A stretch of 64,000 nucleotides of DNA from Acidobacteriota bacterium (GTDB lineage: Bacteria; Acidobacteriota; Terriglobia; Terriglobales; Acidobacteriaceae): the NCBI GenBank assembly GCA_021804965.1, contig JAJZGG010000007.1, positions 1 to 64,000 on the forward strand. Reading direction: 5' to 3'. Below are positions 43,546-57,836 of the stretch, piece by piece; the first letter of the stretch is position 1; each line of letters opens with the position of its first letter. Below the pieces are notes generated by a model, which saw only the letters and a program-made list of their open reading frames with translations, was not told where the DNA came from and ran no database searches. A program made the position numbers and the translations under genes.

Positions 43546-46500
43546 GTGAATGCGCAAAAAATGCGGTGTGTCCGTTTGGGACTGAGGATGCTGCTGTGTG
43601 GAGTCAGTGTGTTGTGTGTGGCCCAACCCTCTGCCCATATTCAAGCGATTCGGCTGAATAATCGCGGAGTTGCGCTGATGAGTCAGCAGTTTACGCAGCG
43701 TGCCGCGGATAGCTTTGCGCAGGCGTTGCAGGAGGATCCCACGCTGACGCAGGCTGCGATTAACGAGGGGATAGCGCTGCTGGTGCTGCAAAAGGTGGAC
43801 GAGGCGAAGCGGCTGTTTCAGCAGGTGATTGCAACGGAACCGAAGAATCCGCAGGCATGGTACAACCTGGGACTGGCGCAGCACACGGACAATCAGCTGA
43901 GCGCAGCGCTGGCAAGCTTTCAGCAGGCAGTCAGGCTTGATCCGCAGGATGCGGACTCGCTGTACTATGTGGGCGCCTGCTACCAGGAGATGCGTCAGTT
44001 TGACCGCGCCATTCCAATCTACAGGCAGACGCTGGCACTCAACCCATTGCATGTCTCGGCAGAGTTTGGACTGGCCCGATCCCTGCAGCGGACAGGCGAC
44101 ACGGCAGAGGCAAGAAAGTGCTTTGCCCGCTTCCAGCATTTGACGAGCACCAAGATTGCTTCACCACTCGCATTGGCATATGGGGAGCAGGGACATTACT
44201 CCACGGTCAAGGCGGTGGCAGAGCCGAAGGCAATTCAGCACGGGATGATTCCAGTTCGATATGAGATGCAGCCGATGTTGACCGCATCGACGGGAGGGCT
44301 GTCGGGAGCAACCGGCGGGGCCTGCATGATGGACGCGACGGGATCGGGACGGATGGACCTGGTGCTGATGCTGTCGGGCAAGCAGTCGATTGCCGTGCTG
44401 CACAACACAGGTGGAGCTACGTTTCAGAGGCTGGATTCGGATGCAATCGGGTTGCATGCCAGTGGTCATGCCGTCGCATGTGCGGTGGGTGACTATGACG
44501 GTGATGGGCGCAATGATCTGGCTGTTGCGATGGAGGATCGACTGCTGTTGTTCCGTAATCTGGGCCAGGGACATTTTGAGGATGTGACGGCGGCTGCAGG
44601 ACTACTGCCGCGCAATCGCCCGACAGGCCTTACATTCGTTGACTACGATCATGACGGTCATCTGGATCTGTTCTTGACCGGGGATCCGATGCAGGTAGGC
44701 GGCGAGGCGAATGTGTTGTGGCGCAACAATGCCAACGGAACGTTCACGGAACGCACGGCAGAGACTGGTCTCGGCGGAGCGGGCAAGACCGAAGCGGCTA
44801 TTCTTACCGATTTCAACAATGATCGAGCGGTGGATCTAGCGGTGACCGGTGATGCTGCCGCGCCAACACTGTATGTGAATCCGCGCGAGGGAAAGTTTCC
44901 CACACAGCCGATCTATGCCAGCACAAGCCTGCCATCGGCGTTGGGGATTGCAGTACTGGACTTCAACAGGGATGGGTGGATGGATATTGCCATGACGCAC
45001 ACCGGTGCGCCGGGGATCACGCTATGGCAGAATGATGCGTCGACGAGTGGCACTGGCAGACGCTTTGCACGCGTTCCATTGCCACTTGCGGATGCCACGC
45101 GCGGATGGGGTCTGACACCGATTGACGTGGATAACGATGGATGGCTGGACGTGGCCGCAATTGTGCAGACGCGTGTGGGCACGCAGGTGCGCGTCTTCCG
45201 CAACATGGGTAACGGCAGCTTTCAGGATGTGAGCCATAAACTGGGCCTGGACCGTATCCGATGGAAGGCGGCACGTGGCCTGATTGCTGCAGATGTGGAT
45301 GGGGATGGAGCAACGGATCTGATCGTGACGCAGAAGGATGCTGCGCCGGTTCTGCTGCGCAATCTGGGTGCAAACAGGAATCACTTTGTGCGTCTTGATC
45401 TAAGCGGACTGGCGGATAACAAAACCGGCCTGGGAGCGAAGGTGGAAGTGTTTGCCGATGGTCTGTGGCAGAAGTGGGAGCTGGCGGGAGCATCCGGCTA
45501 CCAGACACAGGCTCCGCCGCAGATTCTGGTGGGACTCGGAAATGCGAAGAGCATTGATCTGCTTCGCATCCTGTGGCCGACAGGTGTGCTTCAGGATGAA
45601 ATTGATCTTCCACGCAAGCCGGTGATTGCGATGAAGGAGGCGGACCGTCGGGGAAGTTCCTGTCCGGTTTTGTTTGCATGGAATGGACATCGGTATGCGT
45701 TTATTACGGATGTGATTGGTGCGGGTGTGGTGGGCCACTGGTTCACGCCGGCGCGACGCAACACTCCCAACCCGGAGGAGTGGGTGAAGATTGACGGAGC
45801 CAGCGTAAAAACCTTCAACGGCAAAGTGAGTGTGCGTTTCATGGAGCCGATGGAGGAGGTGAACTACATCGATCAGCTGCGCATGGTGGCGGTGGATCAT
45901 CCGGCCGATGTAATGGTGAATCCGGATGAGCGCTTTCTGGACGATCCTCCCTTTGCCACTGGACGGGTGATTGCCAGTGTGGGCGCACATGTTCCCGCAG
46001 GCGCATGGAATGACGAAGGGAAGAGTGTGCTGGAGCGGCTGAGCCGACAGGACCATGTGTTTGTGAGCGACTTTGTGCCACTTCCCTACGACGGCTTTGC
46101 GAAGATGCATGCACTGACACTTGACCTGGGACAGCGAGAGCCCGATAGACCCCTGCGTCTGCTGATGACGGGCTACGTCAACTACTTCAGCGCGACATCG
46201 CTGTATGCGGCATGGCAGGCAGGCATACGGGAGATTCCACCATATGTCGAAGCAGAGTTGCCCGATGGTCGCTGGCAGCGGATTCCAGGCTTTGCGGGAT
46301 TTCCGGCGGGGCTGGAGCGAACGATAGTGGTGGACCTGACGGGAAAGCTGCCGGCGGGAACTCGACGCATTCGGCTGAAGACGAATCTGCAAATCTACTG
46401 GGATCAGGTGCTGGTGGATGAAAGCAGGAATGCACAGGCGCGCGCCACGGAGTTGCCGCTGGCCACAGCAAAGCTACATTTTCGCGGCTACCCAAAGGAG

Positions 46501-47001
46501 ATGGACGGAAGCAGCGAGGGCGATCTTTCCTATGACTACAATTTGGTTAGCCTGACCGGACCATTTCAGCGCGAGCGCGGAAGCTACACGCACTTTGGCA
46601 ATGTTACTCCGCTGCTGAAGCGTGTGGATAATCGGTTTGCAATCTTTGGGAGTGGCGAAGGCATTGCTGCGGAGTTTGATGCCACTTCCTTGCCTGCTCT
46701 GCCTCCGAACTGGAAGCGGGATTACTTCTTTTACGCCAATGGATTTGTGAAAGATATGGACTGGTGGGATGCGTCCCCGTTCACTGTGGGACAGTTGCCG
46801 TTTCATGAAATGTCGCAGTATCCGTATCCGAAACAGGAACAGAATCCTGACGATGATTCGTCGCTCGACTACCGATTGGAGTGGAATGACCGCTTCCACT
46901 CGGGTGATCCGGAAGGCTTGCACCACTTCCACTATGAGCCCAGCCCATCCACACCGCGCGATGATCTGCAGCATGATTCGGCACCGGAAGTGCAACGATG
47001 A
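43546..47001 (+). CDS. Secreted TPR plus FG-GAP/ASPIC-UnbV (CRTAC1-type) protein
   Basis: 1151 aa, signal peptide, TPRs (AWYNLGLAQHTDNQLSAALASFQQAVRLDPQD), DYDGDGRNDLAVA/DVDNDGWLDVAA repeats, UnbV-like SGYQTQAPPQILVGLGNAKSIDLLRILWPTGVLQ. Confidence 0.85.
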   Translation: MNAQKMRCVRLGLRMLLCGVSVLCVAQPSAHIQAIRLNNRGVALMSQQFTQRAADSFAQALQEDPTLTQAAINEGIALLVLQKVDEAKRLFQQVIATEPKNPQAWYNLGLAQHTDNQLSAALASFQQAVRLDPQDADSLYYVGACYQEMRQFDRAIPIYRQTLALNPLHVSAEFGLARSLQRTGDTAEARKCFARFQHLTSTKIASPLALAYGEQGHYSTVKAVAEPKAIQHGMIPVRYEMQPMLTASTGGLSGATGGACMMDATGSGRMDLVLMLSGKQSIAVLHNTGGATFQRLDSDAIGLHASGHAVACAVGDYDGDGRNDLAVAMEDRLLLFRNLGQGHFEDVTAAAGLLPRNRPTGLTFVDYDHDGHLDLFLTGDPMQVGGEANVLWRNNANGTFTERTAETGLGGAGKTEAAILTDFNNDRAVDLAVTGDAAAPTLYVNPREGKFPTQPIYASTSLPSALGIAVLDFNRDGWMDIAMTHTGAPGITLWQNDASTSGTGRRFARVPLPLADATRGWGLTPIDVDNDGWLDVAAIVQTRVGTQVRVFRNMGNGSFQDVSHKLGLDRIRWKAARGLIAADVDGDGATDLIVTQKDAAPVLLRNLGANRNHFVRLDLSGLADNKTGLGAKVEVFADGLWQKWELAGASGYQTQAPPQILVGLGNAKSIDLLRILWPTGVLQDEIDLPRKPVIAMKEADRRGSSCPVLFAWNGHRYAFITDVIGAGVVGHWFTPARRNTPNPEEWVKIDGASVKTFNGKVSVRFMEPMEEVNYIDQLRMVAVDHPADVMVNPDERFLDDPPFATGRVIASVGAHVPAGAWNDEGKSVLERLSRQDHVFVSDFVPLPYDGFAKMHALTLDLGQREPDRPLRLLMTGYVNYFSATSLYAAWQAGIREIPPYVEAELPDGRWQRIPGFAGFPAGLERTIVVDLTGKLPAGTRRIRLKTNLQIYWDQVLVDESRNAQARATELPLATAKLHFRGYPKEMDGSSEGDLSYDYNLVSLTGPFQRERGSYTHFGNVTPLLKRVDNRFAIFGSGEGIAAEFDATSLPALPPNWKRDYFFYANGFVKDMDWWDASPFTVGQLPFHEMSQYPYPKQEQNPDDDSSLDYRLEWNDRFHSGDPEGLHHFHYEPSPSTPRDDLQHDSAPEVQR

Positions 47002-48407
47002 GCGACGTTGTGCTGGCTCCGGCAACGAGGCAGCTTGCGATGGTGCGCTCCGGCGAGATTTCAGTGAGCGAGCTGGCCGAAGCTCACATACAACAGATTG
47101 CGCGGGTGAATCCGCAACTGAACGCATTTGCAGATTTTGATGCAGACCGAGTGCGCGAGCAGGCGCGAAGGCTGGATGAGATGCCTGAGCCGCGCGGACC
47201 GCTGCACGGCCTTCCGGTTACGGTGAAATCCTCCATTGCGGTAGCAGGCTATCGCTGCGAGATTGGCAGTCTGCTACACAAAGACGAAATTCCGGATGCA
47301 GATGCATGCGTCGTTGCGCGACTGCGTGCTGCAGGAGCACTGCTATTGGGCACGACAAACTGTCCGGAGTTCCTGATGGCGTATGAGACGGCCAATCTGC
47401 TGCATGGCCGTGTACACAACCCGTGGGATCTGGATCGGACGCCTGGAGGCTCGAGTGGGGGCGAGTCGGCAGCCATTGCAGCGGGAATGTCCGCAGGTGG
47501 ATTGGGCAGCGATAGCGGAGGCTCGGTGCGGGTGCCGGCACACTTTACGGGGATCTGCTCACTGAAGCCGACTCCGGGGCGTATTCCGGGGCGCGGACAT
47601 CTGCCGCCATGCGTGGGGCCGTTTGCCACGCTGGGCGCAATTGGTCCCATGGCGCGTACTGCAGAGGATGTGGCGCTGATGTTTGAGGCGCTGAGCGGAC
47701 AGGACCCCATCGATCCCATCAGTCCACCGATGCTGTATCGCGAGCGGAGCCTGGCGGAACTGCGATCACAACGCGTCGGATTTTTTGAGGATGACGGCGT
47801 GATCCCGGTGACGCCGGAGACGCGTGCTGCTGTACGCCAGGCGGCGGAAGCATTGCGGGCATGTGGATTGGATGTTGTCCCATTTCGTCCACGCGCGCTG
47901 GAAGCGATGCGAGAACTGTGGTGGAAGTTTTTTGTGCAATGCGGAGCCATGTTCTACCAGCCCTCCATTCGCGGCAGGCACGAACTGTTGAGCCCGATCT
48001 TCCGCGAATTTCTTGGAATTGCGGAAGCTTCAAAACCTCTGACGGCAACGACGCTGCTGGAGGCATGGGCAGAGATGGACATCGTACGCGGAAGGATGCT
48101 GGAAGAGATGCAGGAGTATCCGGTCATCCTGAGTCCAGTCGCGGCGATTCCTGCCTTCCGGCATGGGGAGCGCAGTTGGCAGATTGACGGAGTTCCAGTT
48201 CTTTATCTCGATGCGCTTCGCTACACGCAATGGTGGAACACAATGGGCGCACCGGCAGCGGTGGTGCCGGTTGGCTGCTCGCGTGAAGGGCTGCCCATCG
48301 GTGTGCAGATTGCTGCGCGACCCAATGAAGACGAGACGGCGCTGGGCGTGGCGAGACTTCTGGATGCAGCGTTTGGATATCGTCCACCATGGATCGCGCG
48401 GGGTTGA
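46998..48407 (+). CDS. Amidase signature-family amidase
   Basis: Catalytic motif: TVKSSIAVAG, TPGGSSGGESAAIAAGMSAGGLGSDSGGSVRVPAHFTG; 4-bp overlap with upstream gene. Confidence 0.92.
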   Translation: MSDVVLAPATRQLAMVRSGEISVSELAEAHIQQIARVNPQLNAFADFDADRVREQARRLDEMPEPRGPLHGLPVTVKSSIAVAGYRCEIGSLLHKDEIPDADACVVARLRAAGALLLGTTNCPEFLMAYETANLLHGRVHNPWDLDRTPGGSSGGESAAIAAGMSAGGLGSDSGGSVRVPAHFTGICSLKPTPGRIPGRGHLPPCVGPFATLGAIGPMARTAEDVALMFEALSGQDPIDPISPPMLYRERSLAELRSQRVGFFEDDGVIPVTPETRAAVRQAAEALRACGLDVVPFRPRALEAMRELWWKFFVQCGAMFYQPSIRGRHELLSPIFREFLGIAEASKPLTATTLLEAWAEMDIVRGRMLEEMQEYPVILSPVAAIPAFRHGERSWQIDGVPVLYLDALRYTQWWNTMGAPAAVVPVGCSREGLPIGVQIAARPNEDETALGVARLLDAAFGYRPPWIARG

Positions 48408-48498: not shown

Positions 48499-48909
48499 GT
48501 GCAGAACAATAGGCAGAGTGAATTTGCCGACAGCCCCGATGTACTTCTTGGCGCAAGTGGTGTACAAACCCAGATTCCAGTGAGCAACTTTATGGTGGCT
48601 GGTGACGATTTCGTCATCTTGGCTGGGCCGTGCTCGATGGAGACCGAGAGCCTGTTCGTGTCCATGGCACTGCATGCGCAGCAATGGAGGACGCGGGTGC
48701 TGCGTGGAGGAGCATTCCAGCCGCGCACTTCGCCGTATGCCTTTCAAGGTCCGGATATGGATCGACTGAAACTGCCGGACCGTGTTTGCTCCGAGAAGGG
48801 GCTGGCGATCGACACCGAGCGGATGCCGTGGATTGCTCTCCGCTCGCAGCAGGCACAGTGCCTGGATATGTTGCAGAGGGCAGGTGGAAGCGTGGTGGTG
48901 GCGGAATGA
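48499..48909 (+). CDS. Truncated DAHP synthase-like protein
   Basis: FMVAGDDFVILAGPCSMETESLF...LRGGAFQPRTSPYAFQGPDMDRLKLPDRVCSEKGLAIDTERM; 136 aa; GTG start with GAGGAG; stop overlaps next gene's ATG. Confidence 0.75.
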   Translation: MQNNRQSEFADSPDVLLGASGVQTQIPVSNFMVAGDDFVILAGPCSMETESLFVSMALHAQQWRTRVLRGGAFQPRTSPYAFQGPDMDRLKLPDRVCSEKGLAIDTERMPWIALRSQQAQCLDMLQRAGGSVVVAE

Positions 48910-50318
48910 ATCCGATTTCCAGCAAGGTTCTGTTGTGTGCGGCGATGCTTTCCTGCACGATGTGGCTTGGTGTTTCCTCTGTATCTGCGCGTGCGTCGAC
49001 TCCGGATTTCATCGTGACGGCCGCACCGGTCTACAAGCCTCTTGCAGAGTTGCGCGGAGGTGAGCGTTTTCCTGAGGGAGCGCAACTGCTCCTGGTTCAC
49101 GAGGGAAAAGCGACGCTACTGGTTCCTGATTTTGTCGCAAGTGCCGACGCGGATCTCTCCTATGACGGGAAGTCGTTGCTGTTCGCAGGCAAGCGGACAT
49201 CAGGAGATCGGTGGCAAATCTGGGAACTGAATCTGGCGAATCATTCTGTCCGCAGGGTTGTTTCTACAGCGACGGATGCAGAGCGTCCGCTGCATCTTCC
49301 CGGCGGTCGGCTGGTGTGGGCCGAGCGAACCGGACAGATGTTTGAACTCGACTCCACCGACAATGGTCCGAGCCGGAAGCCGGCACCACGCAATCCGACT
49401 GCTGATCCGGGCCCACTGCTGTTTACTCATCTGCAGGGCAGTGCATTTCCTGTGGCTGTGCTGCGGGATGGCAGGATTTTGTTTGAAGCCGGATATCCGC
49501 TGGGTTCTGGATCCATACCGGAGTTGTATCTGGTGTATGCGGATGGGTCTGGTGTGGAGTCCGTACGTTGCGATCATGGTCGCGCACGCTGGGGTGGTAC
49601 GCAACTGGAGTCCGGCGATACGGTCTTTACGCACGGCAACTCGCTGGCGCGCTTTACCTCCGCGCAGGCCAACGAAGTACCCGTGGCGGCGCCGCGCGGC
49701 GAATATGCCGGATCAATGGCGGAGATCGCTCCTGATCTATGGCTGATGAGCGCAAGGACTGGCGCAGAGAAGCACTACACGATTCGCGCCTGGAAGCCGG
49801 GTGATCGTGCGATGCAGACAGTCCTTGCCGAGCATGGAAGAGATCTTGTGGAGCCGGTTCTCTTCGCACCGCATGCGCGGCCCAATCGGCATCCTTCCGG
49901 ACTGCACCCGTGGGATTATGCCAACCTGCTGGCATTCGACTCACGACTGTCCCGTGCGGGCGACTTGAAAGCAGCGCCAGCTTCCGTGCGATTGGAGATG
50001 CAGGATCAGAGTGGGAAGACAGTTGCAATGGGAACTGCGCCGGTGGAGAAGGATGGTTCGTTCTTCGTGAAAGTTCCGGGAGACAGACCGCTTCGGTTTG
50101 TGCTGCTGGATAAGAATGGTGCGGTTCTGCGACGTGAACGTGGCTGGTTCTGGGCTCGCGGCGGAGAGCAGAGAATCTGCGTGGGCTGCCACACAGGACC
50201 GGAACGATCCACGGAGAATCGGGTACCGGAAGTGCTGCTTCGTTCAACGACCCCTGTTGATCTGACGGTTCCCATGAAGTCTGCTGCACAGCATCGTGCG
50301 GGCAAGGAGGGCAACTGA
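48906..50318 (+). CDS. Secreted PD40-propeller / single CxxCH protein resembling hydrazine synthase alpha (HzsA-related)
   Basis: Signal peptide; SYDGKSLLFAGKRTSGDRWQIWELNL; VPGDRPLRFVLLDKNGAVLRRERGWFWARGGEQRICVGCHTGPERSTENRVPEVLL. Confidence 0.75.
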   Translation: MNPISSKVLLCAAMLSCTMWLGVSSVSARASTPDFIVTAAPVYKPLAELRGGERFPEGAQLLLVHEGKATLLVPDFVASADADLSYDGKSLLFAGKRTSGDRWQIWELNLANHSVRRVVSTATDAERPLHLPGGRLVWAERTGQMFELDSTDNGPSRKPAPRNPTADPGPLLFTHLQGSAFPVAVLRDGRILFEAGYPLGSGSIPELYLVYADGSGVESVRCDHGRARWGGTQLESGDTVFTHGNSLARFTSAQANEVPVAAPRGEYAGSMAEIAPDLWLMSARTGAEKHYTIRAWKPGDRAMQTVLAEHGRDLVEPVLFAPHARPNRHPSGLHPWDYANLLAFDSRLSRAGDLKAAPASVRLEMQDQSGKTVAMGTAPVEKDGSFFVKVPGDRPLRFVLLDKNGAVLRRERGWFWARGGEQRICVGCHTGPERSTENRVPEVLLRSTTPVDLTVPMKSAAQHRAGKEGN

Positions 50319-50319
50319 G

Positions 50320-52134
50320 ATGCGGAAGATCATGGCATTCCTTTTCAGCGTGGTCACGGTTGCTGCAGCACAGCCAGGACCCGCACCATCGACCTTGACT
50401 GTGCGATGCGGTGACTCTGGGCAAAACACGGTTGCGGCAACATCAACAACCACGCCGGGCAGCTGCAATGGCACGGTGTCGCAGGAGCATGCGGCCATTC
50501 GCTTTGAGGATGCGACTGCGAAATCCGGCATCCATTTCACGCACAGCTTCGGATCCGCACGGTTGGGATCGCTGCTCGAAGGAACCGGAGCCGGCTGCGT
50601 ATGGTTCGACTACAACAACTCGGGAAGGCCTTCGCTTTACGTGGTGAACGGACGCCCGCTGGAGGATGCGATGCATCCGTATCCGCTCAAGGTGAAGCCC
50701 AGTACGCCGCCGCACAATCATCTGTATCGCAATGATGGCAGCGGGCGATTTACCGACGTGACCGAGGAGTCCGGCTTGAATCCGGAGATGTATTCGATTG
50801 CTGCAACCGCCGGGGATTATGACAACGACGGCAAGGAGGACTTGCTGGTTACAGGTTACGGAAAAGTGGTGCTTTACCACAACGATGGCCAGGGACACTT
50901 CCAGGATGTGACGGCCAAGGCTGGAATCAAGGTTGAGGGCTGGAGCATCAGCTCCACCTGGCTGGATTATGACAGGGACGGATGCCTGGATCTGCTGGTG
51001 GGACGATATGTGAAGTTCGACCCCAAGTACCGCACGTTCTACGCGGCAGACAACTATCCAGGGCCGCTCGCCTATGCCGAACAAACCAATGTGTTGTTTC
51101 ACAACAACTGCGACGGTACATTCACCGACGTTACTGCGAAGTCGGGGATGGGATCTGTTCCCGGGCGCACGATGGGCGTGACTGCGGCAGACTTTGACAA
51201 CGATGGATGGGATGACCTTTACGTTGCCAATGACAGCACGCAGAACTTTCTGTTTCGCAACAAGCACGATGGAACCTTTGAGGAGATTGGCAATGAATCG
51301 GGTTCGGCTTACGGGCAGGATGGAGAAGCAACCTCGTCGATGGGAGCCGTGGCTGCAGACTTCTGGAATCGCGGAGTGCTGGATCTGTGGGTGACGGATG
51401 GCAGCTTCAACCGCTTTCTGAAAAATCTGGGTGCGCCGCCACTGGGGACATCATCGTCCGGGTCGCAATCGGAGTGGAAGGGCTTTGAAGATGTGACCGC
51501 CGAGGCGGGAATTTCCCAGACCGATGCGCAGTATGTGAGCTGGGGATCCGGTGTGTATGACTTCGATAATGATGGCCAGCTTGACATGCTGGTTTTCCAT
51601 GGCGGGCTGATTCAGTTGATTCCGCAGGAGCACACGCTGTTTCGCGGAGTTGGACAGGGGAAGTTCGAGGATGATTCCCGCAAGGCAGGAGCCGTGCTGG
51701 ACGCGCGCACGGTGGCCCGTGGTGCCTGCTTTGCTGATTACGCGAACAATGGCAAAGTGGGAGCATTTCTCGTCAATCTTGGAGCCGAGGGCAAGCTGAT
51801 CGAGAATGTTTCGGCTGGCACTGGCCACTGGATAGACATCCAGCTGATTGGTGCCATGCGCGATGGCGATCACGGAACACCTCCTGGTCCGGGTGCGAGG
51901 AGTAATCGCGATGGAGTAGGCGCACGCGTAGAGATTGTGTCCGGAAGCAGGAGATGGACGCAGGAGAGAGTGGCCAGCTCCGGCTATCTGTCAGAAAACG
52001 ACGGACGGCTGCACTTCGGTCTTGGAGCTGCGAATGTCATCGACAAGGTAACGGTGCGTTGGCCCAGCAGTCGCGTGCAGACACTGGAGCATGTCAGCGT
52101 GGATCGCGTTGTGATTGTGGAGGAGCCACGATGA
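50320..52134 (+). CDS. Secreted CRTAC1-family FG-GAP/ASPIC-UnbV protein
   Basis: DYDNDGKEDLLVTGYGKVVLYHNDGQGHFQDVTAKAG, DFDNDGWDDLYVANDS, RWTQERVASSGYLSENDGRLHFGLGAANVIDKVTVRWPS. Confidence 0.9.
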   Translation: MRKIMAFLFSVVTVAAAQPGPAPSTLTVRCGDSGQNTVAATSTTTPGSCNGTVSQEHAAIRFEDATAKSGIHFTHSFGSARLGSLLEGTGAGCVWFDYNNSGRPSLYVVNGRPLEDAMHPYPLKVKPSTPPHNHLYRNDGSGRFTDVTEESGLNPEMYSIAATAGDYDNDGKEDLLVTGYGKVVLYHNDGQGHFQDVTAKAGIKVEGWSISSTWLDYDRDGCLDLLVGRYVKFDPKYRTFYAADNYPGPLAYAEQTNVLFHNNCDGTFTDVTAKSGMGSVPGRTMGVTAADFDNDGWDDLYVANDSTQNFLFRNKHDGTFEEIGNESGSAYGQDGEATSSMGAVAADFWNRGVLDLWVTDGSFNRFLKNLGAPPLGTSSSGSQSEWKGFEDVTAEAGISQTDAQYVSWGSGVYDFDNDGQLDMLVFHGGLIQLIPQEHTLFRGVGQGKFEDDSRKAGAVLDARTVARGACFADYANNGKVGAFLVNLGAEGKLIENVSAGTGHWIDIQLIGAMRDGDHGTPPGPGARSNRDGVGARVEIVSGSRRWTQERVASSGYLSENDGRLHFGLGAANVIDKVTVRWPSSRVQTLEHVSVDRVVIVEEPR

Positions 52135-54164
52135 ATCAACGCGTGGTCAACCGAGGATGGCGCTGGGCGGGCAGCATCGCTGTGGGCGTTACGGTGATGA
52201 TGCTGGTTGCGCTGCTGCCAAAGACGACGATGGCGGCATACAACGCAGGGGAACTGCTGAATTATGCCTCGCCGGTGGAGATGCTGTATTCGCCGGATGG
52301 AGCCCGGCTCTATGTGCTGGCAAGCCAAAGCAATGAAGTGCGCATCCTGAATGCCACCAACTTTACCCCCATTGGGACGGTGGTGGTGGGGCATGTGCCG
52401 CGCGGATTTGCATTGTCTGCGGACGGTAGCAGGCTCTACGTGGCCAACTCGTGGGATGACACGGTATCGGTGATCAACACGCGGTCGCTTTCAGTGGTGG
52501 CCACATGGCATGCAGGGATGGAGCCACAGAGTGTGCTTGCCGATCCAGCTGGAAAATATGTGTTCGTGGCCAACCGCATCTCCAGCGATGTGGCCGTGCT
52601 GGATGCTCGGACCGGCATGGAGTTGAAGCGGCTTGTGGCTGGACGCGGAGCGAGCTATATGGCCATGTCGCCGGATGGGAAGCGGATCTATGTGACGCAT
52701 GTCTATCCCAATCCAGGCCCGGAAAGAACGCCGCCTGAATCGGAGATCACCGTCATCGATGTGGCGCGGGTGCAGGTGGTGGATCGCATACCGCTTCCAA
52801 GTGTTGCCGGGGTGTTTCATGTGACAGTCTCCTCGGATGGCCGCCTGATGGTTGCAGCGGAATTGCATCCCAAGAATCTGGTGCCACTGGCTCACCTGGA
52901 GCATGGGGGTGCGTTCGTGGATACGCTGACACTGTTTGGCTCTGATGTGGGGGCCAAGCCGGTCGAAATTCCACTCGATGAGATTGAGCACTATGCTGCG
53001 CGTCCTTTTGGTGTGGCGATTACTTCGGATAAGTCGCGCATGTTTGTCAGCTGCGGCGGTTCGGAGGAGGTGCTCGTGATCGATCTTCCTCGCCTGCTTC
53101 ATTTCATTCATACGCATCGCGGACCATTTGCGGAGAACCTTGGGGCAAGTGCCAACTACGTGATTGCGCACATCCCGGTTGGGCATGATCCGCGCGGGGT
53201 TGCCATCACGCCGGATGCACGCAGATTGCTGGTTGCCAATCGACTGGATGACAGGATCAGCGTGATCGATACACATTCCAGTCGTGTGCTGACAACAATT
53301 CCGCTCAGCGGCTCGGAGCAGCTGTGGTCATTGCAGTTCAGCGACCGGATATTTTCCGCCGTAAACGATCAGCCCAATGGGAAACGGCAATGTTCGCAGT
53401 GCCATATCGACGAGCAGCACCGGAATGCATTCACGATGGACTTCAGTACAAGGAAGCGGATACAGGCGCTGCGCAGAGGAGAGCAGATTTTTTATACCTC
53501 GCGCTATTCGTTTCAAGGCCAGTTGGCCTGTGCCAACTGCCATTTTGACTCCACCTTCGACGGGCTGGAGTGGGATCTGGAGCCGGATGGATTTGGCCGC
53601 AACATCGTTGACAACCGGCTTCTGGAAGATCTGCGCGACACCGCACCGTACAAGTGGAACGGCGGGAACCCTGACATCCCGACAGAGTGCGGGCCGCGCA
53701 CGGAGAAGTATTTCTGGCGTTCGGAGATTTATGACGATACCAAGCTGGCGGATCTGGTGGGATATATCCTCAGTCTTCCCGCAAGGCCGAACCGGTGGCG
53801 GCTTGCTTCCGGCGCGTTGACGCCTGCGCAGGAGCGAGGGAAAGCGATCTTTACGCGCACCAGGGATTCCTTTGGGTATCCCATTCCGCAGGCAAACCGC
53901 TGCAACTATTGCCACAGCGGACCGATGGGGACCGATCAGAAATCCTTTGATGTGGGAACACGAAGAGCGACCGACGACACCGGCCGCTTCGATACGCCAC
54001 AGTTGACCAACATTGCGCTCACTGCGCCCTATCTCCATGACGGATCGGCACGCTCGCTGGAAGAGATCTGGACCCTGTATAACCCGCAGGACAAGCATGG
54101 ACGCACAAATGATCTGACGAAGGATCAACTGAACGATCTTGTCGAATACCTGAGGACACGATGA
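52131..54164 (+). CDS. YVTN beta-propeller fused to MauG/cytochrome c peroxidase-like domain (three CxxCH)
   Basis: ALSADGSRLYVANSWDDTVSVINTRSLSVVATW repeats; CSQCH, CANCH, CNYCH; DTPQLTNIALTAPYLHDGSARSLEEIW. Confidence 0.88.
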   Translation: MNQRVVNRGWRWAGSIAVGVTVMMLVALLPKTTMAAYNAGELLNYASPVEMLYSPDGARLYVLASQSNEVRILNATNFTPIGTVVVGHVPRGFALSADGSRLYVANSWDDTVSVINTRSLSVVATWHAGMEPQSVLADPAGKYVFVANRISSDVAVLDARTGMELKRLVAGRGASYMAMSPDGKRIYVTHVYPNPGPERTPPESEITVIDVARVQVVDRIPLPSVAGVFHVTVSSDGRLMVAAELHPKNLVPLAHLEHGGAFVDTLTLFGSDVGAKPVEIPLDEIEHYAARPFGVAITSDKSRMFVSCGGSEEVLVIDLPRLLHFIHTHRGPFAENLGASANYVIAHIPVGHDPRGVAITPDARRLLVANRLDDRISVIDTHSSRVLTTIPLSGSEQLWSLQFSDRIFSAVNDQPNGKRQCSQCHIDEQHRNAFTMDFSTRKRIQALRRGEQIFYTSRYSFQGQLACANCHFDSTFDGLEWDLEPDGFGRNIVDNRLLEDLRDTAPYKWNGGNPDIPTECGPRTEKYFWRSEIYDDTKLADLVGYILSLPARPNRWRLASGALTPAQERGKAIFTRTRDSFGYPIPQANRCNYCHSGPMGTDQKSFDVGTRRATDDTGRFDTPQLTNIALTAPYLHDGSARSLEEIWTLYNPQDKHGRTNDLTKDQLNDLVEYLRTR

Positions 54165-55336
54165 ACGATTGCAGGATGCACTGGATTTCGATGCGCATGC
54201 TGGTTGCCGTTGCAGTGGTGAGTGGGCTTCTGTGCGGTATGTCTGGCATTGCGCAGCAGCCATCAAACAGACGCACTGCCTCAGTGCATGCGGCAATCCC
54301 CCAGATGCCTCGATTCCGTTTTCAGAACTTCACCACAGAGAATGGTCTGCCGGACAACCATGTGTATGCCGTGCTTGTGGATGGCGACCGGATATGGGCG
54401 GGTACGGACAATGGTTTGGGTCTGTATGAACACGGCAAGTGGAAGGTCTTTACGACCAAAGATGGGCTGGCGCATCGTGCCGTGCTTTCTCTGGCGGTGG
54501 ACAAGCGTACCGGAGATGTGTGGGCCGGTACGATGGGCGGGCTGAGTCGCATCTCGGCCGGTCGCATCGATTCGTACACCCAACTCAATTCCGGGCTGAG
54601 TAACAACATCGTCTACGGCGTTGCTGTGGAGGGAGAGAATGTGTGGGTGGCAACCGCTGCCGGTGCCTGTCGCCTGAATCTGCGTACGGGTGCATGGTCG
54701 CTGTACAACGAGCGCAATACCCCGATGCGCGAAATCTGGGTATACGGCGTTTCCGCCCAGGCAGACAAGGTGTACTTCGCGGTATGGGGCAGCGGACTGC
54801 TTGAGCTGACCCAGCAGAGTGATCGCTGGGATATGTATGACGATCCGGATCACGAGACCGAGCTTGTGCTTTTCAGGAATCAGGGGCTGATCCACGACGT
54901 TGTCTCTTCCGTCAGCTATGTCGACGGCACGGTATGGGCTGCAACCTACTTTGGAGACAGTCGGTATGACGGCAGGTATTGGCGCAATTTCCTGACCAAG
55001 GACAGTGGCCTGCCATCGAACTTTACCAACTACGTGAAGGGCGTCGACGCCAATCACGCATGGTTCTGTACAGACAAGGGCCTGGCCTATTACGACGGCG
55101 TGAACTGGGCAGTGTATACGCCATCCATCCCCACGGGCAGGCCGGAGATGTGGGTGCGCGATTCCCGGGGACGCGTCACACAGATTCCGGTGACTACAGC
55201 GCCGGCCAACAACTATATCCTCGGCATCGATTTCCAGGGTGACGATATCTGGGTTGCGACAGCGAAGGGATTGAGTCACGGAATTCGTCAACAGTCCATC
55301 CATTCCAAACCACTTCCAAAGGAGCCATTGAAATGA
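54161..55336 (+). CDS. Secreted two-component-regulator-type propeller (Reg_prop) protein without signalling domains
   Basis: FQNFTTENGLPDNHVYAVLVDGDRIWAGTDNGLGLYEHGKWKVFTTKDGLAHRAVLSLAVDKRTGDVWAGTMGGLSRIS. Confidence 0.82.
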   Translation: MNDCRMHWISMRMLVAVAVVSGLLCGMSGIAQQPSNRRTASVHAAIPQMPRFRFQNFTTENGLPDNHVYAVLVDGDRIWAGTDNGLGLYEHGKWKVFTTKDGLAHRAVLSLAVDKRTGDVWAGTMGGLSRISAGRIDSYTQLNSGLSNNIVYGVAVEGENVWVATAAGACRLNLRTGAWSLYNERNTPMREIWVYGVSAQADKVYFAVWGSGLLELTQQSDRWDMYDDPDHETELVLFRNQGLIHDVVSSVSYVDGTVWAATYFGDSRYDGRYWRNFLTKDSGLPSNFTNYVKGVDANHAWFCTDKGLAYYDGVNWAVYTPSIPTGRPEMWVRDSRGRVTQIPVTTAPANNYILGIDFQGDDIWVATAKGLSHGIRQQSIHSKPLPKEPLK

Positions 55337-55830
55337 CCGCACTTACTGAAATTCTGGAGACCATTGCCAGTGCACCCATTGAAAAGCGCGCGATGACCAA
55401 TCTGGGCGTATTGAACGAAGCCTACTGTTACGACAAGCCGAGTTCGTTTTCGCGCGGCATGCGGATCGACATTGGCGAGGTGACAATTCTGCTGATCTCC
55501 GGTACGGCGTCCATCGATGAGCAAGGCGTGACGGTGCATGTGGGGGATTTTCGCGCACAGCTCCGGCGCACGTTTTCCAACATCACCGGATTGCTGGCGA
55601 GCGAGGGCTGCACCTGGCACGATATTGTGCGGACCACCTGTTACCTGCGTGATATCGAGCGGGATTACGAGGCATTCAACGAGGAGCGTACGCAGTTCTT
55701 CAAGGAACAGGGACTGGATCCTTTGCCTGCCTCCACCGGCATTCAGGCGATTCTCTGTCGTCCGGATTTACTGATCGAGATTGAAGCCATTGCCATGTTC
55801 CGAACAACGAAGGGCAGCAGCAAGGAGTAA
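55333..55830 (+). CDS. RidA (YjgF/YER057c/UK114) family protein
   Basis: ILLISGTASIDEQGVTVHVGDFRAQLRRTFSNITGLLASEGCTWHDIVRTTCYLRD...IEIEAIAM. Confidence 0.82.
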   Translation: MTALTEILETIASAPIEKRAMTNLGVLNEAYCYDKPSSFSRGMRIDIGEVTILLISGTASIDEQGVTVHVGDFRAQLRRTFSNITGLLASEGCTWHDIVRTTCYLRDIERDYEAFNEERTQFFKEQGLDPLPASTGIQAILCRPDLLIEIEAIAMFRTTKGSSKE

Positions 55831-55835
55831 CGACG

Positions 55836-57836
55836 ATGCGAAGGGCATTCCAGTGGGCCGCATGTTGCATTTGGACAATGTGCGGCGCGGCTACGATGTT
55901 GTGTCAGAACGAGCACAGACAATCTGCGCCGCATGCAGATCCGCAGTCTGCGACCTGTCCATGCGGGACCCATCCCCCGGGTCCCGAACAGGCGTGGACA
56001 GCTGAGCCCTATGCCAACGAGCCTGACGATATGCGTCCTTTCGCCAGGTTTGCCAAGCCGTATCAGTCGAACTATCTGCAGCCGACCATCTGGAATGGCC
56101 CCGGCCGCGAGACACCCGATCCCAAGGGACTGAGCGAGGTGCGTCTTGGTTTTGTGGGGCCAATCTCGCCGGAGGATCCGGACTATGCGCTTGGGATGCG
56201 CATGCTGCACGGAGCGCAGATGGCGATGGACGAGGCCAACTCCCGTGGCGGATACAACGGCATTCCCTATCGGCTGACGCTGAACAGCGACTACAACAAC
56301 TGGCAGGCGAATGCAGTTGCCGGAAGTCGGCGGCCCACCGATCCGGAAATCTGGGGGTCGGCAGCAGATGTGGCCGTGCATGTGATCTATGACGACAATG
56401 CCTGGGCTATCTTTGGCTCCATCAATTCCGAGTCCACGCACATCATGCTTCGAGTGGCGCTGAAGGCGGAAATTCCCATCGTCAACTCCGCCTCCACCGA
56501 TCCCACCATTCCGGAGACATCCATCCCCTGGTACTTTACCGATCTGCAGGATGACCGCGTGCAGAGCTATACGCTCGCGCGGCGCATGTATACGGAACTG
56601 GGGCTCAGGCGCGTTGCCATTCTGCGCGTGAGCAATCGCTACGGCCGCATGGGGGTTGCAAAGTTTCGCGATGCATCCCGCCGCATGGGCCACCCCGTGG
56701 TGATGGAGCAGGATTTTCTCTCCGGCGAGACAGACTTCCATCGAGCACTGCGGAATATCCGCGACTCCGGCGCAGACGCGATTGTGCTCTGGACCGATCA
56801 GGCTCCGGCAGCGATGATCCTGAAGCAGATGCGTGCCATGGGCATGCAGCAAAGGGTCTTTGGTTCCTATCGCACGCTGGGGCCGGAATTGCTTGCCCAG
56901 GCGGGCCCGGCTGCAGAGGGATTCGAGGCGGTCTACCCGTATGATCCGACACGCAAGGATCCGCGGTGGATCGCCTTCAACCAGCGCTTCCAGTCGCGCT
57001 TTCATGCGTCCCCCGATCCGTTTGCTTCCCTTGCCTACGACGCGATGAACATTCTGCTCGATTCGATCTGCAGGGCTGGACTCAATCGGGTGCGCATTCA
57101 GGATGCGCTGGACAATGTTCGCCAGTTCGACGGAGTGACGGGCGCAATGCGCTTTGACCCGAACCATAAGAACCTGGCTCCCATGTACTTGGGCACGGTG
57201 CATGACGGCAGCATCACCTATCGGCTTGCCCACATGCGCAAACCGCAGGGTGCAAGCGCGATATCGGCTGCTCTGCCAGCCGCTGCGCCTGCCCCTTATG
57301 CCCGCGTTGGCGAGGATGGAGTTGGTCTGGCTCCAGGGGTACGGCGTGCGCAAGCCACACGCGTTGCGCCTGTGGTCGTCTTTGGCCCGAATGCGGTCCG
57401 CGAAGTCCAATCCGCTTCCGTGCTGGATGTCTTCCGCGAGCGGATGGCAGACGGAGGGCAGTGGACTCTGGTGCCGATCGAGAGCAGACAAAACTGGGGG
57501 ACGGCCTCATCGCAACTGGTGCATGCGCTGACGGAGGAACACGCCGTGGCCATTGTGGCACTGGACCGGGATGCAGCGCACCTGGCGGAGCAAATGGCGC
57601 TCAAGTGCTTCCTGCCGGTGATTGCTTTGAGCGACGACCGATCGCTGACCTCGGCAAACATTCCCTGGATCTTTCGCCTGCCGGCCGGAACCAGGCTGGG
57701 AGCGGCGATTCAACTGATCCAGCAGGCGGCAGCGCGCAACGGCAGCGATCCCGGGCAGATCCGGGATGCGCTTGCCTCCGGCCACAGCATAGCCGGGAAC
57801 GCATTCCTGGCAACCGGCGAGAGACGGCTCCCGTGA
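55836..57836 (+). CDS. Periplasmic (Leu/Ile/Val-type) substrate-binding protein with an additional C-terminal lobe-like region
   Basis: VRLGFVGPISPEDPDYALGMRMLHGAQMAMDEANSRGGYNGIPYRL, AIFGSINSESTHIMLRVALKAEIPIVNSASTDPTIPE, VAILRVSNRYGRMGVAKFRD; second segment APVVVFGPNAVREVQS.... Confidence 0.82.
   Translation: MRRAFQWAACCIWTMCGAATMLCQNEHRQSAPHADPQSATCPCGTHPPGPEQAWTAEPYANEPDDMRPFARFAKPYQSNYLQPTIWNGPGRETPDPKGLSEVRLGFVGPISPEDPDYALGMRMLHGAQMAMDEANSRGGYNGIPYRLTLNSDYNNWQANAVAGSRRPTDPEIWGSAADVAVHVIYDDNAWAIFGSINSESTHIMLRVALKAEIPIVNSASTDPTIPETSIPWYFTDLQDDRVQSYTLARRMYTELGLRRVAILRVSNRYGRMGVAKFRDASRRMGHPVVMEQDFLSGETDFHRALRNIRDSGADAIVLWTDQAPAAMILKQMRAMGMQQRVFGSYRTLGPELLAQAGPAAEGFEAVYPYDPTRKDPRWIAFNQRFQSRFHASPDPFASLAYDAMNILLDSICRAGLNRVRIQDALDNVRQFDGVTGAMRFDPNHKNLAPMYLGTVHDGSITYRLAHMRKPQGASAISAALPAAAPAPYARVGEDGVGLAPGVRRAQATRVAPVVVFGPNAVREVQSASVLDVFRERMADGGQWTLVPIESRQNWGTASSQLVHALTEEHAVAIVALDRDAAHLAEQMALKCFLPVIALSDDRSLTSANIPWIFRLPAGTRLGAAIQLIQQAAARNGSDPGQIRDALASGHSIAGNAFLATGERRLP

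Follow-up and report, generated by a model that had tools for sequence, protein, structure and literature searches.

An acidobacterial operon with homologs of all three hydrazine synthase subunits, very probably not hydrazine-forming, is repeatedly linked to DAHP synthase and chorismatase-like genes

To our knowledge, hydrazine synthase (HZS) was long thought to have no homologs. In December 2025, Hagglund et al. described homologs of its alpha subunit and of fused beta-gamma subunits outside the anammox bacteria, with a CRTAC1 gene beside them (PMC12758564). In clades I-III of these homologs, the alpha gene lies upstream of the fused beta-gamma gene, with CRTAC1 between them, and the proteins lack heme alphaII or the C-terminal domain, lack Tyr591, and have Trp at the position of gammaHis144. 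In clade II, gamma has two hemes and no added N-terminal cytochromes; for clade III, a substrate-binding protein (SBP) was reported downstream. The zinc ligand alphaCys303 is kept in no homolog, nor in all anammox bacteria. The related clusters were judged not to be hydrazine synthase, and chorismatase, RidA and DAHP synthase (DAHPS) are unmentioned in the main text (PMC12758564).

We analyzed a stretch of 64,000 nucleotides (the window) from a soil acidobacterium (Table 1). An earlier note on this DNA had pointed to an architecture like that of HZS at 48906-54164, and had called it a similarity of architecture only. The resemblance to HZS is real, and the note understated it, as there is homology of sequence and fold to alpha, beta and gamma. 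It is not new, because PMC12758564 describes such clusters.

Table 1. Genes of the operon and its neighbors, and heme motifs, in the window
Feature	Coordinates	Strand	Remarks
TPR + FG-GAP + UnbV protein	43546..47001	+	Tied to the cluster mainly in Acidobacteriaceae
Amidase-signature hydrolase	46998..48407	+	Tied to the cluster in Acidobacteriaceae only
DAHP synthase gene remnant, first half only, 143 aa	48478..48909	+	Relatives have a full-length paralog at the same place
HZS-alpha-like protein, 470 aa	48906..50318	+	Propeller at the N-terminus, then the HZS_alpha middle domain; single c-heme motif; heme-alphaII domain absent
CVGCH, heme alphaI counterpart	50178..50192	+	Followed by TGPE; Kuenenia has YGSY there, with the Tyr591 ligand
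CRTAC1-type protein (FG-GAP repeats + ASPIC/UnbV)	50320..52134	+	Between alpha and beta-gamma
Fused HZS-beta-gamma-like protein, 677 aa	52131..54164	+	Seven-bladed YVTN propeller and di-heme CCP/MauG-type part
CSQCH, extra heme motif	53391..53405	+	Residue 421; insertion between beta and gamma parts
CANCH, heme gammaI counterpart (gammaCys102/Cys105/His106)	53529..53543	+	Residue 467
CNYCH, heme gammaII counterpart	53901..53915	+	Residue 591
Reg_prop propeller protein	54161..55336	+	Start overlaps beta-gamma stop; conserved operon member
Rid-fold protein, chorismatase-like	55333..55830	+	No RidA-type deaminase Arg; Cys-7-Glu spacing of chorismatases retained
Peripla_BP_6 SBP with a second, partial SBP domain	55836..57836	+	Corresponds to two distinct SBP genes in other families

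The reading frames for the alpha-like and beta-gamma-like proteins are both intact. A search for the HZS alpha middle domain, which the earlier note had proposed, gave a match: Pfam's HZS_alpha aligns to residues 374-429 of the 470-aa product (E = 3e-17, 63.4 bits, cut-off 26.6). This is the only HZS_alpha match in the genome, and it includes the protein's single CxxCH (C425-H429), which is C-terminal to the propeller. The best PDB fold for this product was HZS alpha (5c2v_A, E = 2.9e-18), eight orders of magnitude ahead of TolB. (The alpha match at another locus, L042, belongs to a kinase that carries a PD40 propeller, and we rejected it as a whole-protein homolog.)

The 677-aa product consists of the YVTN propeller (about residues 47-381) and the CCP/MauG-type part (about residues 445-675) that the earlier note had read there, along with its three heme motifs. 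It aligns to residues 14-349 of Kuenenia HzsB (of 352; E = 1.9e-34) and to residues 41-312 of HzsC (of 314; E = 7.9e-22). Structural similarity to HzsA, HzsB or HzsC, on which the note had staked its reading, was found for the alpha-like protein and for the beta part, whose best fold match was 5c2v_B (E = 4.8e-29, TM 0.86 by target); the gamma part was modeled with low confidence and resembles 5c2v_C by sequence. Judging from alignments and predicted folds, the first product is homologous to HZS alpha, the second is a fused HZS beta-gamma homolog, and chance is far from enough to account for the resemblance, which is homology.

Generic propeller and cytochrome domains might look like HZS by chance: YVTN propellers are common, and by sequence, the S-layer propeller 1l0q outscores HzsB for the beta part, owing to repeats. 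However, by fold, 5c2v_B is ahead of 1l0q by eight orders of magnitude, the alignments to HzsB and HzsC are full-length, and other propellers in the genome score far below the 677-aa product against the hydrazine_BC model. Also, three HZS-type subunit parts lie in one conserved operon. The full-length sequence and fold matches contradict a chance architecture, and its probability is negligible.

The operon could instead encode a genuine hydrazine synthase, or another enzyme that forms N-N bonds, outside the anammox bacteria. It has homologs of all three HZS subunits, and Cys165 and His332 are retained, but several key features of HZS are missing. As the earlier note had recognized, the alpha-like protein is short, has a single CxxCH and lacks a second heme domain: it stops about 40 residues past this motif, without the C-terminal domain that holds the bis-His heme alphaII. 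Tyr591 has no counterpart (TGPE versus YGSY), and none of the 94 alpha homologs that were scored has a Tyr within six residues after the CxxCH, nor do another 8 that were printed separately. In gamma, the His144 position is Trp in the window and in 85 of 86 beta-gamma sequences (window included), and the Asp168 position, which is Thr in the window, is Asp in 0/86. NCBIfam's equivalog models for HZS were all missed by far, with scores (and cut-offs) of 48.5 (800), 132.9 (560), 90 (625), and 178.6 (1250) bits; the last of these, NF052342 (Scalindua-type fused beta-gamma), was the best match (E = 1.6e-52). No NirK in the genome scored over its cut-off. A search of the genome for hydrazine dehydrogenase/HAO gave no match, and the control genomes were likewise silent. 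We rejected hydrazine synthase because of the missing key residues and the unmet cut-offs, and PMC12758564 reached the same verdict on related clusters. A hydrazine-forming enzyme is thus very improbable, and the earlier note was right not to claim one. We are confident that the operon encodes a homolog of HZS that does not form hydrazine.

The gamma part has a di-heme CCP_MauG domain (38.9 bits, cut-off 25.6). As far as sequence can tell, the third heme-linking cysteine, Cys165, is kept in the window and in 74 of 86 beta-gamma sequences. His332, the distal ligand of heme gammaII in the HZS structure, is kept in the window and in 85/86. (We also considered Glu525, which adjoins the Asp168 position, as a peroxidase-type acid, and dropped it because it is not conserved among relatives.) The insertion that bears CSQCH is common to a subset of relatives only, and most close relatives have two motifs. 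We consider the chances of a MauG/CCP-like redox role to be evenly balanced. In a rival reading, akin to maturation by MauG, the heme complex would build a cofactor by oxidative modification of a partner protein, the CRTAC1 and Reg_prop propellers being examples. The di-heme MauG-type part with its conserved Trp fits this, as do the CRTAC1 and Reg_prop genes, which are almost always adjacent and are well conserved across clusters. However, where MauG has a Tyr heme ligand, the window's protein, like HZS, has His; the TTQ_mauG model scores 28.7 bits (cut-off 443.85); and no known partner with a quinone cofactor was identified. We view maturation as improbable.

The earlier note left the rest of the operon unconnected. 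In the loci that we compared, the genes stand in the order DAHPS-alpha-CRTAC1-betagamma-RegProp-Rid-SBP, and their starts and stops overlap. We newly find the operon to occur widely in Acidobacteriota: its core is retained in deep acidobacterial loci, and the cassette is intact in a cultured species, Occallatibacter savannae (L096). In three loci (L035, L037 and L038), FNR-like regulators with four conserved Cys are encoded directly upstream of alpha. Scans for promoters and terminators found no excess over chance.

In most families of the phylum that we examined, genes for DAHPS and/or the Rid/chorismatase protein accompany the cluster, and their position within it varies. This repeated link of the operon to an extra DAHP synthase (in relatives, the cluster's DAHPS is an additional paralog) and to a chorismatase-like Rid protein is new here. 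The Rid protein of the window matches a chorismatase model (E = 2.7e-8). It is a single-domain protein of 165 aa and scores 33.5 bits against TIGR04444 (cut-off 325); two-domain homologs of it are found inside the same clusters at L091, L159 and L165. Its Cys142 and Glu149, the counterparts of the chorismatase subfamily Cys and catalytic Glu, are invariant in 8 sequences, with the same spacing as Cys318 and Glu325 of Nat-hyg5. The deaminase Arg of RidA sits in LPAR. In the window protein this position is Ser, which disfavors an imine deaminase. As for the SBP, aromatic binding found no specific support: the solved structures nearest to it bind branched-chain amino acids and are not known aromatic binders, which speaks against an aromatic reading. 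So do three other observations: the window's own DAHPS is a decayed remnant, the Rid protein is far under the chorismatase cut-off, and at deep loci L154, L155 and L163, neither DAHPS nor Rid was found in the stretch that was read. The remnant has dN/dS of 0.71, versus 0.1-0.2 for its neighbors; being truncated and relaxed, this gene is dispensable in this organism.

A complex of HZS ancestry could also be a periplasmic di-heme peroxidase, or could detoxify NO or peroxide, with the aromatic genes merely co-transcribed. The CCP_MauG match and the conserved Trp favor this alternative, as do the clusters that lack DAHPS and Rid and the decay of DAHPS in the window. On the other hand, drift alone would not leave DAHPS and/or Rid/chorismatase genes with the cluster, at shifting positions, in most of the families examined. 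Such a peroxidase or detoxification role is unlikely, if less so than maturation.

In the explanation that we prefer, which as a whole falls a little short of an even chance, the operon would encode a c-type heme complex of the periplasm that is homologous to HZS and made up of mono-heme alpha-like and fused beta-gamma-like subunits; the CRTAC1 and Reg_prop propeller proteins and the SBP would be accessory parts of the system. We infer the association of the subunits, and the signal-peptide-like N-termini and c-heme motifs suggest the location. The complex would make no hydrazine. Heme gammaI, with Trp for gammaHis144 and the third Cys-heme link retained, would be a peroxidase or oxidase site of the MauG/CCP type, and electrons would be relayed by the alpha heme and by the bis-His-ligated heme gammaII. 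We infer that the partner chemistry is likely an oxidation or reduction in which a small aromatic derived from chorismate takes part, perhaps at low oxygen. Two products of the linked genes, the additional DAHP synthase and the chorismatase-like Rid protein, would make this aromatic. That the aromatic link functions in this way is a tentative proposal that we lean against somewhat, and the more general claim, that in Acidobacteriota an HZS-derived complex acts on, or takes as a cofactor, a chorismate-derived aromatic from its own operon, is more doubtful still. Because the clusters of relatives are usually beside genes that resemble those of aromatic biosynthesis, a different heme oxidoreductase is likelier than a hidden anammox enzyme.

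More broadly, a nearly complete set of HZS subunit folds is found widely across Acidobacteriota. As a cultured species, O. savannae, has an HZS-like cassette, the role of the HZS fold before hydrazine could be tested at the bench. The recurrent association with genes for DAHP synthase and chorismatase-like proteins is the first concrete hint about the substrate that we know of. If true, an aromatic-linked complex would amount to a novel enzyme system and a relative of the lineage that gave rise to hydrazine synthase. Annotations of HZS_alpha or hzs in soil metagenomes are no evidence of anammox.

Overall, the operon shares with the anammox HZS of Kuenenia (5c2v) the three subunit folds, the motifs for hemes alphaI, gammaI and gammaII, Cys165, and His332. 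It differs from it in lacking Tyr591 and the heme alphaII domain, in having Trp for His144 and Thr for Asp168, in its opposite gene order, and in the fusion of beta and gamma. Scalindua-type beta-gamma (NF052342) has this fusion as well, but the window's protein is far below that model's cut-off. Like MauG and bacterial di-heme cytochrome c peroxidases, the window's protein has a CCP_MauG domain and the Trp position, but it has His as the ligand residue of heme II, a beta propeller fused in front, and model scores far below the cut-offs. The Rid protein shares with FkbO/Hyg5-type chorismatases a motif with Cys seven residues before Glu; unlike them, it is single-domain and under the cut-off. 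By its features, rather than by placement in a tree, the operon appears to be a member of the kind in PMC12758564, nearest to clade II. With clades I-III it shares alpha upstream of a fused beta-gamma with CRTAC1 between, an alpha without heme alphaII or the C-terminal domain, the absence of Tyr591, and Trp at gammaHis144; with clade III, the SBP downstream. Most Terriglobia relatives of the window are like clade II in their two-heme gamma without added N-terminal cytochromes, while the window has the extra CSQCH motif from its own insertion. In contrast to clades I-III as described, Reg_prop, Rid/chorismatase and DAHPS genes accompany the cluster.

The window carries a real and conserved heme operon that is homologous to anammox hydrazine synthase (HZS). 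By the tests made here, it is not a hydrazine synthase. Heme operons of this kind have already been published; what is new is how widely the HZS-like operon occurs in Acidobacteriota, and that it is linked to genes related to chorismate.

The earlier note had likened two products to HZS by architecture. Both reading frames are intact at the coordinates it gave (see table). In the alpha-like protein (470 aa), the middle domain of HZS alpha is detectable: Pfam HZS_alpha matches residues 374-429 (3e-17), the sole match in the source genome. Among solved structures, HZS alpha is the only relative that phmmer finds (1.3e-10), and a profile from 16 alpha homologs reaches it at 5.4e-26. Compared with the PDB, the AlphaFold model (pLDDT 79) is closest to Kuenenia HZS alpha (5c2v_A; E = 2.9e-18); TolB propellers follow at 2e-10.

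The fused beta-gamma protein (677 aa) matches HzsB (1.9e-34, residues 14-349 of 352) and HzsC (7.9e-22, residues 41-312 of 314). Its top match is NCBIfam's fused hydrazine_BC model (1.6e-52), against which the genome's other propellers score far lower. The propeller model likewise bore out the resemblance to HZS, with 5c2v_B as the top match (E = 4.8e-29, TM 0.86 by target) and 1l0q as runner-up (7e-21). The gamma part was modelled poorly, so its assignment is by sequence. A further NCBIfam match of the propeller is L-NosZ (lactonase-type nitrous-oxide reductase; 5e-20), well under its matches to HZS models. The extra CSQCH motif lies within a 42-residue insertion that is common to some close relatives. 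Such an insertion, with a third CxxCH between the beta and gamma parts, occurs in a subset of Acidobacteriaceae: besides the window, loci L025 (aligned, as was the window) and L045, L046, L062, L065, L066 and L077 (by motif count).

We scored gamma residues in an alignment of 86 sequences, with Kuenenia HzsBC letters from search outputs. His332, the distal ligand of heme gammaII in HZS, is retained in 85/86 beta-gamma sequences. The gammaHis144 position is Trp in 85/86. Cys165 is retained in 74/86 (Asp in 9). The Asp168 position is Thr in 74/86 and Asp in none of the 86. (Roles of residues other than His332 are from PMC12758564 and PMC12607021.) Tyr591 and heme alphaII are features of HZS alpha. 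None of 94 alpha sequences scored has Tyr within six residues after the CxxCH, nor do 8 printed separately. With few exceptions, alpha proteins end soon after the CxxCH, without heme alphaII. One exception, at L035, has three further C-terminal CxxCH motifs (Cytochrome_C7-like), which may take over the function of heme alphaII.

Coordinates of features, in the window unless another locus is named
Feature	Start	End	Strand
DAHPS remnant	48478	48909	
Alpha	48906	50318	+
CRTAC1	50320	52134	
Beta-gamma	52131	54164	+
Extra CSQCH motif	53391	53405	
Reg_prop	54161	55336	
Rid	55333	55830	
SBP	55836	57836	
L035 alpha homolog	9183	10982	

ATGA-type start/stop overlaps (46998, 48906, 52131, 54161 and 55333) recur along the gene cluster, which suggests one transcript. 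Scanning genome contigs gave 80 loci, nearly all from Acidobacteriaceae MAGs; the cultured Occallatibacter savannae AB23 is among them. The recurring order is DAHPS-alpha-CRTAC1-betagamma-RegProp-Rid-SBP. Among these 80 loci, many of them cut by contig ends, CRTAC1 is seen in 78, DAHPS in 72, beta-gamma in 69, Reg_prop in 63, SBP in 58 and Rid in 57; amidase (46) and TPR-FG-GAP (41) are mainly among nearer relatives. At loci from distant Acidobacteriota the cluster is rearranged and still includes alpha, CRTAC1, beta-gamma, Reg_prop and two SBPs. The window's SBP combines a full Peripla_BP_6 domain with a partial second one and is apparently a fused, shrunken form of two SBP genes of other families. 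A typical acidobacterial cluster (L069, 66% identity) is on a contig labelled Betaproteobacteria MAG palsa_1004, probably a binning error.

Across the phylum, 47/396 genomes have HZS_alpha, in part within proteins of another type (>1000 aa). Those of 1000-1400 aa (L170, L171 and other genome hits, from other Acidobacteriota families) apparently have a different architecture, and other cluster genes were not found near L170 and L171.

The window's Rid gene weakly matches the chorismatase model TIGR04444 (2.7e-8), and the clusters of L091, L159 and L165 contain two-domain homologs; that of L159 is directly upstream of alpha and overlaps it. On contig PLPA01000283.1, about 20 kb separates two different HZS-like clusters (L079, L091). 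In the second, alpha and beta-gamma are accompanied by a two-domain chorismatase-like gene, and thioredoxin-like (ResA/TlpA-type) genes flank the cluster on both sides. Cys142 and Glu149 of the Rid protein are invariant (8/8 sequences), with the same spacing as Cys318/Glu325 of Nat-hyg5 (PMC7170507). In most of the genomes tested, the DAHPS of the cluster is present in addition to another DAHPS paralog. Where relatives carry a complete gene, the window retains only the first half (143 aa), under relaxed constraint (dN/dS 0.71 vs. the nearest relative; 0.1-0.2 for neighbouring genes). Given these Rid and DAHPS findings, the link is phylum-wide, not universal, and partly decayed in the window. 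The mechanism proposed for the operon is redox chemistry of the MauG/CCP type in which a chorismate-derived aromatic would take part.

Three loci (L035, L037 and L038) have FNR-type regulators with four conserved Cys directly upstream of alpha, and the source genome has no NirK over the cut-off. A related Occallatibacter grows under oxic and microaerobic but not anoxic conditions (PMC12935467), unlike the obligate anaerobes emphasised in PMC12758564. That paper describes homologs of alpha and of a fused beta-gamma, together with CRTAC1, in bacteria other than anammox, and sorts them into clades I-IV; nowhere in its main text are chorismatase, RidA, DAHP synthase, amidase or FNR mentioned. Heme-motif counts at our loci fall into types that match its clades as described there: ten (L154, L159, L163), six (L156, L157, L161), three (L165, L166, L168) or two (most Terriglobia). 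Its description of clade II fits the window except for the extra CSQCH.
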